Below, one piece after another: positions 1,136 through 59,100 of a stretch of 64,000 nt of DNA. Source of the DNA: Bimastos eiseni (Eukaryota; Annelida; Clitellata; Crassiclitellata; Lumbricidae). Each line of letters begins with the position of its first letter. Position 1 is the stretch's first letter. The DNA lies in assembly GCA_959347315.1 (NCBI GenBank), contig OY365817.1, positions 4,694,643-4,758,642 of the forward strand, written 5' to 3'. The notes under the pieces were generated by a model, which saw nothing but the letters and a program-made list of their open reading frames with translations, did not search any database and was not told where the DNA came from. Position numbers and translations under genes: made by a program.

Positions 1136-2030
1136 GTTGTTTCTTTTCCCGTGCCCATATTTCCCGAGAACATCGGTTTCCAATGCACCCTCGCCAACTC
1201 TAGCATTGAAATCTCCTGTAATCAATAATATGTTTCGTTTGGGGTCTCTGCAATGACCTGATTTAACTCTGTGTAGAATTGATTGATTTCTTCATCTGGC
1301 TTGTCTGCTGGTGGTGCATAGCATTGTATCACTGTCACGTTTCTTGGTCTATATGAAACTGTGGCTGTCATTACTCTGTCGCTCACTGGATTATAAGATA
1401 TTAGACTAAATGCAACATTCTTGTTGCATTTGTTGCAACATTCTTGTTCATCCAGATGGTTACTCCGTGATGTTCCCTGTTTATCTTACCTGAGAATAGC
1501 ACTGTATGTCCATCTTGAACCAAGTGGCCATTGTCTGACCACTTGGTTTCTGATAACCCGCATATGGAGATGTTTAATCTTTCGAGTTCATTCCAAGTAT
1601 CGATAATTTCCCGATCGAGTTCAACCCTCTCACATTCCATTGTCCTATTTTGATCCTGTATCTACCGTTTAACTGAATTGATTTTACCTTTCTTTTGTTT
1701 TCTATTGGTGATTTTGACGATGGTGTCGATGATGATGATGATGATGAGTCAGTAGCACACTTGTCGGCACCCATCCTGACTCACACGGTGGATGGCGCGG
1801 GCCTTTTTATCCTGGGCGACGTCCGAGCCAGTATAGTTTCTATATTCTGTTCCATTCATGTTCTGTGGGGGAGGGTGTGACCAACTGAGTACCCGCTCTC
1901 TTGCTGGTTTCGCAGTTGATTTACCGTTGTGCCAGGTTGGACCCGGTATGCACCAAATCATAAGTTCGATTGCTGCCGTTGGGTGCATTGTGCTCTTCAT
2001 CCGCTGATAAGAACCGCGCTGCTGCCCGCC
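1136..2030 (-). mobile_element. RTE-like LINE fragment (endonuclease part), left arm
   Basis: On the minus strand this encodes the start of an APE-type endonuclease (IGQWNVRGL, ICGLSETKW, reading on toward VIQCYAPPAD) with interruptions. It mirrors the longer copy at 56290-58765. Its far end is cut at 1136, inside the endonuclease domain, at the fusion with the LTR. A short ATC/GAT microsatellite (near 1728) lies in its Ser-rich leader. It is non-functional. Confidence 0.8.
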
Positions 2031-2478
2031 GTTCTAGACTTTCAGGTTAGCCCATGACCGGTTGCAGTTTTACGTCGTGTCCATGAGTAAGAGAAATAAT
2101 TTTGAATATTGGATGTAAACAACTTCACGTTAAAACGACAAATGAGTCGACGTCTTCATTCGTTGCTAAGAAACACGCATTGTGACGTCTTACGACGTTA
2201 ACTTATATACCGTTGTGGATTATAAATTTATTAATTTCGTTTTCCAGTTTTACAATTCAAACGTTTCAACTAAAACTCCTGCAAAATTCCGAACAAAAAG
2301 CTAGAAAATAAATAGATATTCCAGGTCTTGATATCGAGAGAAAACGAACGCTATAATAACCGTGATCTAACGAGCTCGTGTTATTTCTTAACACTTTAAA
2401 ATCTAGCAGATGTTAATCCATCGACTGAGTGATCTTACATCATTTTCTATATCTATACTGAGGAATTTAACATAGTAT

Positions 2479-56100: not shown

Positions 56101-59100
56101 TATAATCCACAACGGTATATAAGTTAACGTCGTAAGACGTCACAATGCGTGTTTCTTAGCAACGAATGAAGACGTCGACTCATTTGTCGTTTTAACGTGA
56201 AGTTGTTTACATGCATTATTCAAAATTATTTCTCTTACTCATGGGCACGACGTAAAACTGCAACCGGTCATGAGCTAACCTGAAAGTCTAGAACGGCGGG
56301 CAGCAGCGCGGTTCTTATCAGCGGATGAAGACCACAATGCACCCAACGGCAGCAATCGAACTTATGATTTGGTGCATACCGGGTCCAACCTGGCACAACG
56401 GTAAATCAACTGCGAAACCAGCAAGAGAGCGGGTACTCAGTTGGTCACACCCTCCCCCACAGAACATGAATGGAACAGAATATAGAAACTATACTGGCTC
56501 GGACGTCGCCCAGGATAAAAAGGCCCGCGCCATCCACCGTGTGAGTCAGGATGGGTGCCGACAAGTGTGCTACTGACTCATCATCATCATCATCATCATC
56601 ATCGACACCATCGTCAAAATCACCAATAGAAAACAAAAGAAAGGTAAAATCAATTCAGTTAAACGGTAGATACAGGATCAAAATAGGACAATGGAATGTG
56701 AGAGGGTTGAACTCGATCGGGAAATTATCGATACTTGGAAATGAACTCGAAAGATTAAACATCTCCATATGCGGGTTATCAGAAACCAAGTGATCAGACA
56801 ATGGCCACTTGGTTCAAGATGGACATACAGTGCTATTCTCAGGTAAGACAAACAGGGAACATCACGGAGTAACCATCTGGATGAACAAGAATGTTGCATT
56901 TAGTCTAATATCTTACAATCCAGTGAGCGACAGAGTAATGACAGCCACAGTTTCATATAGACCAAGAAACGTGACAGTGATACAATGCTATGCGCCACCA
57001 GCAGACAAGCCAGATGAAAAAATCAATCAATTCTACACAGAGTTAAATCAGGTCATTGCAGAGACCCCCAAACGAAACATATTATTGATTACAGGAGATT
57101 TCAATGCTAGAGTTGGCGAGGGTGCATTGGAAACCGATGTTCTCGGAAAATATGGGCACGGGAAAAGAAACAACAGAAGACAAACTTTGGTGGATTTCTG
57201 CACACAGCACAAGTTGGTTGTCACCAATACGTTTTCTCAACTGCACAATAGACATAGATATACTTGGAGAAGCCCAGACAAAAACACTAGAGCGCATTTA
57301 AGATTCAAAAGGAAACGAACCATCAAACCTCTTCTCTTAGACTTGGAAAAACTCAGAAACAATCAGATAGAACAGCAATACCAAGTTGAAATAACTAACA
57401 GATTCGAAGCACTTGAGGGAACTGCCGAATCACGCACACCAGATGAACTATGGCAACAACTTAAAGAGATCACTCTGAGTGCCGCCAAAACAACACTATT
57501 GAAGAACTGCAACAACCGAAAGAATTGGATCTCCAGTGACACCTTTGAATTAATAAGAAAGAAAAGAGATGCAAAAACAAAGTCTCCACAAGAGTACAAA
57601 ATTCTACGAAATGAGTTACAACGGATGTTACGAAGAGACAAGCAGTCGGAATTTGATACATTATGCATCGAGCTGGAGGAGAACGAAAGGAAAGGTAACA
57701 CCAGACCTGTATTCCAAATGGTGAAGAAGCTCACTGGCTATGAAACAACCACAGTACCTCTGCTTCATTGACTTTACAAAAGCTTTTGACATGATTCAAC
57801 ACGATCAACTATGGATAACCATGATGTAGATGGGTTTCCCACCCCACCTCATTCAGCTATTGCGAAATCTCTACAAACAACGAGCTACTGTAAAGACAGA
57901 CGGAATTATGTCGACTTGGTTTAGTATCAAGAAAGGAGTCCGACAAGGATGTAATTTGTCACCAAGCCTGTTTAGCATTCCGGCAGAGCAGGTAATGCGA
58001 AAAGCACTACTATAGGCTACCACAAAGGATTCAGGATTGGAGGGGAGACTATAAATAACCTTATATATGCTGATGACATCGTGCTACTGGCCACTTCACC
58101 TGAGGATTTACAGGAGTTGGTGCAACGTGTTGAGATATCAGCAAAAGAATACAGTATGCTGATTAACGTAGCAAAGACAAAAGTAATGACATATAACAAT
58201 GATACACTTTTGATCAAGGTGAACGGATACAAACTGGAACAAGTGGACTCATTTACATACTTGAGGAACAGAGTAACGAAGGACGATGACTGCGCGAGTG
58301 AGGTAAAATCTGTCATGTTTAAGTTGGTAAGCCTCTGGAAGAATAAATCAGACAGTACTTAAACCAAACTGCGACTCGTGAAGGCCTTGGCTTGGCCAGT
58401 AGCAACGTTGTGAGGTGGTTGTGGTTGTGAGGCGTGGACAATAAAGGAAGAAGAAGAGAAACGTTTACAAGCATTTGAGAACAAGTGCATGAGGAAACTG
58501 CTCAGAATTTCATGGACAGCAATGGTGACCACCGAACAAGTGTATCAAATGGCGAAAGTTGACAGCAAACTGTTGGGTCACATCAAATCCAGAAATGCGG
58601 TTCTTTGGGCACATCGTGAGACAGCCTAAAGACACTATTGAGAACAGTTTGATGTTGAGTTAATGAACATCGTACGAGACAGAAAGCATTGGACATCACT
58701 TTCCCATTAATGTAGTCAACCGTCGCGAAGCGACGATGGCGATATGACATGACAAGCCATGACATGACATACTAATGATAATAAATAATGGAAAGATTAT
58801 TTAAAATTTTTCAGTACAATTAAATAGTGGAATAACATTCAATAATACATTATGTAAGTTCAATGTCCAAACTTGTAGCTTTGTTTAGGGAACTAAATAT
58901 GGTTATTGAAGTTGCATACTGGATATTGGAAAAACCATTTCATATACTATTTCTAAACACCAACAATTGGACACAGCATATAAATTGGATTGTTTTGTAG
59001 TGATGAATGTATTTTTTTATTATTGATGCTTGTGTTGCTAAGTCGATATTAATTCGTTCATTTTGCAATTCTGAATGTCTGGATTTATTATTATTCCTTT

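Follow-up and report, generated by a model that had tools for sequence, protein, structure and literature searches.

In the human fold-back duplications described in PMC3907307, the single-copy spacers between inverted arms mostly measure a few kb, inverted microhomology of 2-8 bp was found in 13 junctions (7 of them with 2 bp), and the rearranged chromosomes end in a terminal deletion, a translocation or a ring; this and the other papers cited here are used as far as their excerpts go. Interstitial inverted variants need another route, and strand switching at replication forks has been proposed for them (PMC10766186). Of the 23 parthenogenetic genomes that were screened in PMC7953838, 10 were reported to contain palindromes, with a caution about scaffolding errors. 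Here we analyzed a 64-kb stretch of the genome of the annelid Bimastos eiseni (C12:4694643-4758642, hereafter the window), which contains most of a large palindrome: two inverted arms, each carrying a gene of the SLC5 transporter family, separated by a decayed histone gene unit. The palindrome does not look like an assembly error but like a genuine natural rearrangement of a known type, and it probably arose by fold-back or template-switch synthesis between two histone promoters.

The assembly has 660 Mb in 118 contigs. From contig C12 (29.6 Mb), 100 kb was fetched on each side of the window, giving 264 kb for analysis, and positions to the left of the window are written as coordinates below 1. 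Self-BLAST of the window paired 1135-23162 with 57175-30725 in four collinear inverted blocks. When the arms were compared through these BLAST pieces, 470 of the 21,589 aligned columns were mismatched (2.18%; 261 transitions and 209 transversions), a similarity far above chance. An earlier sequence-only reading of the window had claimed an inverted repeat around a 7.6-kb spacer, to be checked by aligning the arms; this alignment bears the claim out, with a spacer of 7.55 kb and a step in the mismatch rate along the arms. The same reading took 1136 and 57174 as the outer edges, and there it was wrong. The mirror homology returns outside the window, in the flanks of the same assembly, where -4742..-8899 pairs with 58743..63115, and it stops only at -9548 on the left and 63292 on the right. 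The whole left arm (-9548..23162) is thus 32.7 kb long and the whole right arm (63292..30715) 32.6 kb. Positions 1135 and 57175 are the borders of a non-homologous replacement within intron 1 of the transporter gene, which covers 5.9 kb on the left (-4742..1134) and 1.6 kb on the right (57176-58742).

The two clear deletions between the arms that had been claimed were found again: a segment of 4.6 kb (34339-38929) is present in the right arm only, and one of 0.3 kb (8552-8853) in the left arm only. The right arm alone also has another ~0.1 kb (39727-39831). Since an open reading frame (ORF; 34136-34567) crosses the edge of the 4.6-kb segment, the left arm more probably lost this segment than the right arm gained it. 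No N is present in the window or in the surrounding 264 kb. Matches across the whole assembly were also counted, and these counts are lower bounds. With 4200-6700 as the query, at least 51 matches were obtained (40 of 768 candidates scored); the unique part of the query matched the two arms only, and the matches elsewhere all fell within its first 646 bases, which are repeats. With 17981-22838 (40 of 9,454 candidates scored), long matches were confined to the left arm, the right arm (in three pieces) and a partial third copy, and the other 40 of the 45 matches were short repeat pieces. Two local features of the arms were observed besides. The outermost 181 bp of the palindrome (63112-63292) are 100% identical to -9548..-9368, next to DNA that is ~2% diverged. 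The intron-1 stretch 630-1133, outside the arm, is ~10% diverged from the arm DNA at 54120-54636, and has similar relatives at -4746..-3981.

Divergence is not uniform along the arms. A change point was located at left position 7328, with 47 mismatches in 6,122 columns (0.77%) outward of it and 423 in 15,467 (2.73%) inward. Its likelihood ratio of 48.4 was reached by none of 500 column shuffles (maximum 8.8) and none of 500 block shuffles (maximum 17.8). Because the outer arm pieces beyond the low-divergence tract are again at ~2.0-2.2% (47/2,153 and 39/1,989), the tract is internal. This pattern suggests gene conversion from arm to arm over ~6 kb; local differences in mutation rate may also have produced it.

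The spacer can be read through an intact counterpart. Contig C14 ends in a tandem array (L029) of intact histone quintets with a period of 7.69 kb, in which the units are 99.9% alike, and the gene order of this unit allows the spacer to be read as one flipped unit (H4, H1 tail, H3, LINE, H2A; LINE, long interspersed nuclear element). The spacer is a dead histone cluster, as the sequence-only reading had it: H4 and H2A carry in-frame stops, H3 carries a frameshift, and the H1 core and H2B are missing. Two histone 3′ stem-loops reach the Rfam threshold. Neither H2B nor the H2B-side divergent promoter (L029 4896-5400) was matched in the 264 kb, except by fragments of 33-46 bp, the size of a histone stem-loop, and by a single repeat match of 78 bp, and no other core-histone match was found in the 264 kb beyond the spacer unit. 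Lying at 4.7 Mb of C12, apart from the tandem array on C14 and in a relic state, the unit is a histone orphon; many decayed histone pieces were also seen on contigs other than C14. Within the spacer, an insertion of ~0.5 kb that contains 44-bp tandem repeats (23251-23780) separates the H4 TATA region from the H4 pseudogene. The low-coordinate end of the LINE stretch (27420-29349) adjoins an (ATT)n array, so that a site-specific family is possible.

The inner ~175-210 bp of both arms are histone H4 upstream DNA: the left tip (22988-23164) matches L029 4253-4062, and the right tip matches L029 4051-4275 in the opposite sense. The left border is collinear with the canonical unit, except for a deletion of ~50 bp between repeated ACGCGTCC motifs and the ~0.5-kb insertion before H4. 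At the right border, the H2A/H2B promoter (up to L029 5401) gives way at 30714 to the H4 upstream region in inverted orientation, and the two overlap by 2 bp (CG); the joint and the overlap were read by eye from the alignments. Since the left border is collinear and the right border rearranged, the right border is the new joint. It is also older than the ~50-bp deletion on the left, because the right tip retains ~10 bp of the canonical H4 promoter that the left tip has lost. The joint can be read because both of its sides lie in a histone unit of which an intact form exists in the same genome. In its structure the joint matches a duplication by fold-back or template switching.

Taking the arms, the spacer, the joint, the divergence profile, the open frames, the third copy and the absence of H2B as the observed parts, we infer that the locus is probably an interstitial inverted duplication generated by fold-back or template-switch synthesis, followed by divergence, conversion and a third copy. 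The starting point would have been a chromosome on which a histone unit, relocated earlier, lay next to an SLC5-like gene. A break or stall in the H2A/H2B divergent promoter would have left an end that annealed, through 2 bp of inverted microhomology, to the opposite strand of the H4 promoter 7.5 kb behind it and re-primed there. Synthesis would then have made an inverted copy of ~32 kb of the arm before rejoining the chromosome; the part of the histone unit enclosed by these two promoters would have become the single-copy spacer, and the H2B side would have been lost. Later, the arms diverged by 2-3%, each with deletions of its own, one 6-kb tract was probably homogenized by gene conversion between them, and 4.9 kb of the left arm was duplicated again directly upstream. 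The outcome is a convergent pair of near-identical transporter genes that retain their open frames. The inverted arms and the single-copy spacer that is contiguous with one of them (the left) agree with a fold-back, and the lack of H2B and of its side of the promoter in the 264 kb fits the loss of the distal side in such an event. The earlier suggestion of a recent inverted duplication is supported.

Several points weigh against this origin. The 2-bp overlap at the joint is weak evidence for a fold-back, as an overlap of at least 2 bp occurred in 134 of 1,000 simulated spacers in PMC3907307, and the pre-event sequence is deduced from the canonical histone unit, which is not the true ancestor. 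No terminal deletion, translocation or ring is seen beyond the inverted copy, where C12 continues for 100 kb with an SLC5 array; since the human fold-backs are terminal and this locus is interstitial, a second, unseen joining step is required. The outer ends of the palindrome are read but not explained by it. A fold-back makes the left arm the original, but it is the right gene that has the orientation of the SLC5 array. The coding differences do not indicate which copy is older: of the 32, sorted with the outgroup exons A, B and C, 13 fell to the left copy and 7 to the right, and 12 were undecided. Between the two copies dS was 0.026 and dN 0.012 over exons 1-14, and the deficit of replacement changes in these exons was not significant (binomial p 0.10).

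The orientation of the right gene would be suited by a staggered-break inversion, in which staggered single-strand breaks on the arm side preceded the inversion of the stretch that runs from the H2A promoter across the arm, and fill-in synthesis gave a copy of the arm at either side of the inverted histone unit, with the right arm ancestral. Such an event yields an interstitial product, and inverted duplications of this kind are described at Drosophila inversion breakpoints in PMC3355041. We regard it as rather unlikely here: the duplications in that source measure 1-7 kb against 32 kb at this locus, and the H2B half that it predicts to the left of -9548 is missing, with no H2B or H2B-side promoter in the 264 kb.

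The inverted copy could also have been inserted in another way, for example by the inversion of a pre-existing tandem duplicate, or by ectopic recombination through repeats. The locus already has head-to-tail SLC5 duplicates and dispersed repeats, and the inner end of the third copy falls within one such repeat (22276-22876). Nevertheless, two events would be required, and the joint between two promoters of one histone unit is left unexplained, which makes this route unlikely. The third copy differs from the left arm at 0.60% of positions (29/4,858) and from the right arm at 2.6% (127/4,843), and like the left arm it is without the 4.6-kb segment; from the small distance and the common loss it can be deduced that it is a later offshoot of the left arm. 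A reading of the three copies as an inverted triplication was considered and rejected for the same two reasons and because the third copy has the orientation of the left arm.

An origin in the assembly itself was weighed as well. A simple assembly echo, doubted from the start, is excluded by the 2.2% divergence, the arm-specific deletions and the third partial copy. The sequence-only reading had also left room for two haplotypes joined head to head, and divergence of 2-3% is possible between alleles in a marine invertebrate. A folded alternative haplotype should remain homologous outward, yet when the left flank (-99999..-15050) was compared with the right flank (63293..163999), none of the 34 high-scoring segment pairs of at least 300 bp (E≤1e-20) reached 90% identity. 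Moreover, the homology ends within gap-free sequence on both sides and not at gaps or contig ends, the joint connects two histone promoter sequences that have no common homology beyond 2 bp, and the third partial copy and the step in divergence (0.8% to 2.7%) do not suit such a join, which is therefore quite improbable. A sex-chromosome-type ampliconic palindrome maintained by conversion, although it would account for gene-bearing arms and one conversion-like tract, is scarcely credible for arms that are only 97.8% identical overall, with no more than 6.1 kb at 0.77% where more than 99% identity is expected; nor is such an origin needed.

Features of the palindrome and its flanks (positions relative to the first base of the window)
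Feature	Position	Strand	Remarks
Left arm, main block	1135..23162	+	continues left of the window to -9548
Spacer	23163..30714	+	single-copy, 7.55 kb; one decayed histone unit and a LINE insertion
Right arm, main block	30715..57175	-	mirror of the left arm; inner tip 30715-30725 from the joint alignment
Right arm, outer block	58743..63292	-	exon 1 and ~2.9 kb upstream; mirror of -4742..-9548
Third, partial arm copy	-14998..-10138	as left arm	L017:5002-9862; C12:4679644-4684504; last two exons of the transporter
Low-divergence tract	1135..7327	+	47 of 6,122 columns differ, mostly intronic
Right-arm partner of the low-divergence tract	51011..57175	-	
Segment in the right arm only	34340..38928	+	4.6 kb
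Segment in the left arm only	8553..8852	+	0.3 kb
H4 upstream region over the left arm/spacer border	22988..23255	+	
Inverted H4 upstream region	30713..30922	-	inner tip of the right arm
Novel joint	30712..30716		H2A/H2B divergent promoter to inverted H4 upstream region
H4 pseudogene	23829..24137	+	initiator codon gone, one in-frame stop; 3′ stem-loop 24188-24234
H1 remnant	25204..25756	+	tail only, globular part absent; stem-loop 25696-25742
H3 pseudogene	25934..26340	+	frameshift
LINE reverse-transcriptase ORF (RVT_1)	27523..29349	-	inserted in the histone unit
H2A pseudogene	30202..30561	-	in-frame stop
SLC5-like gene, left copy, exons 2-15	5268..19304	+	exon 1 at -6424..-6086; 632-codon open frame
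SLC5-like gene, right copy, exons 1-15	39110..60435	-	exon 1 at 60435-60097; 676-codon open frame
Right-flank SLC5 genes	84.9 to 70.3, 113.4 to 99.2 and 145.2 to 123.3 kb	-	
Left-flank distant SLC5 paralogue	-55 to -37 kb	+	

Each arm carries a 15-exon gene of the SLC5-type sodium:solute symporters, and the two genes converge on the spacer. Two mirrored transporter genes had been recognized from the window, and their mirror arrangement stands; they are now placed in the SLC5 family with 15 exons each, and exon 1 lies outside the span that had been given for them. Exons were placed by conservation with the neighboring paralogues and by splice sites, and all 14 introns of each copy are GT-AG. 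The left and right proteins differ at 19 of the 632 aligned residues, and the last exon of the right gene (39110-39304) stays open for 44 codons past the stop position of the left gene. Exon 1 alone matches PF00474 (SSF); when the outer block was compared with Pfam in three stop-masked frames, no match was obtained. The joined protein is similar over its full length to SMCT1 (PDB 7sl9, E 3.6e-100, query residues 7-546). In the protein search (best 120 of 456 matches, 7,999 candidates scored), the best named proteins among the matches listed were from annelids, namely Capitella (50% and 48%), Ridgeia (48%), Lamellibrachia (47%) and Owenia (42%), and three unnamed database proteins reached 53%. 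Both genes are, as judged from their predicted proteins, members of the SLC5 sodium:solute symporter family, with sodium-coupled transport as the predicted activity, and we infer that both copies would be expressed.

Three further, more diverged SLC5 genes (L020-L028) follow head-to-tail on the right side of the palindrome, all in the orientation of the right copy. The suggestion of an amplified locus is thus apt in part: it fits these three genes. The right flank also contains a satellite-like tandem array (L026:7363-9839) with many offset self-matches of ~93-94%.

The locus is a naturally retained, base-resolved case of a gene-bearing interstitial inverted duplication outside human disease, cancer and sex chromosomes. 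It illustrates a route by which a tandem transporter family may gain an inverted, converging member, and offers a test case for gene conversion between arms across a 7.5-kb spacer in an invertebrate. A wider idea is that histone units, once relocated, can give rise to inverted duplications. The bidirectional promoters, which lie close together in such a unit, would be sites of fork trouble, a fold-back between the H2A/H2B and H4 promoters of one unit would capture and copy the neighboring genes, and gene conversion between the arms would keep parts of the gene pair alike on an ordinary chromosome. Drawn from a single instance, this generalization is improbable. Among the literature titles and abstract beginnings covered, no inverted duplication jointed inside a histone orphon was found, which is no proof of absence.

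How does the locus compare with what has been described? It shares with the SMCT1- and SMVT-type SLC5 transporters full-length similarity, to SMCT1 and to annelid proteins, and differs in that the transporter belongs to a local cluster. Like the ampliconic palindromes of sex chromosomes, as far as PMC3723533, PMC8981503 and PMC7023750 were available in excerpt, it has gene-bearing inverted arms and a conversion-like tract, but the homogenization of whole arms is absent. With histone orphons, as portrayed in excerpted sources, it has in common decayed histone genes away from the tandem quintet array, with two 3′ stem-loops at the Rfam threshold; it differs in that a nearly whole unit (H4-H1-H3-H2A) stands at the joint of a segmental duplication. 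In the Drosophila mojavensis staggered-break inversions of PMC3355041, formerly single-copy DNA likewise lies inverted on both sides of the inverted segment; there the duplications span 1-7 kb as against 32 kb, and the H2B remainder to be expected from such an event is missing here. The same source holds a partial precedent in a block of ~90 kb with histone clusters that was inserted at another inversion breakpoint.

Replication-based and fold-back events offer further comparisons. The origin-dependent inverted-repeat amplification (ODIRA) and other replication strand-switch models, as excerpted from PMC10766186, were devised for inverted copy-number changes that are interstitial and leave the chromosome end in place, as is the case here. 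They begin with inverted triplications, whereas the order here is plus (partial), plus, minus, with a third copy that, at 0.6% against 2.6%, is of later date than the palindrome. The human fold-backs, as outlined in PMC3907307, are alike in having inverted arms, a single-copy spacer and a joint at one spacer edge only, and the 2-bp overlap seen here may correspond to their inverted microhomology; they differ in that our locus is interstitial, with no terminal deletion or translocation within 100 kb, and that its arms are 32 kb long and 2-3% diverged. By analogy, then, the locus would work like a human-type fold-back, but we do not file it as a member of that class. We conclude that the event is of a known kind and that its histone setting is unusual.

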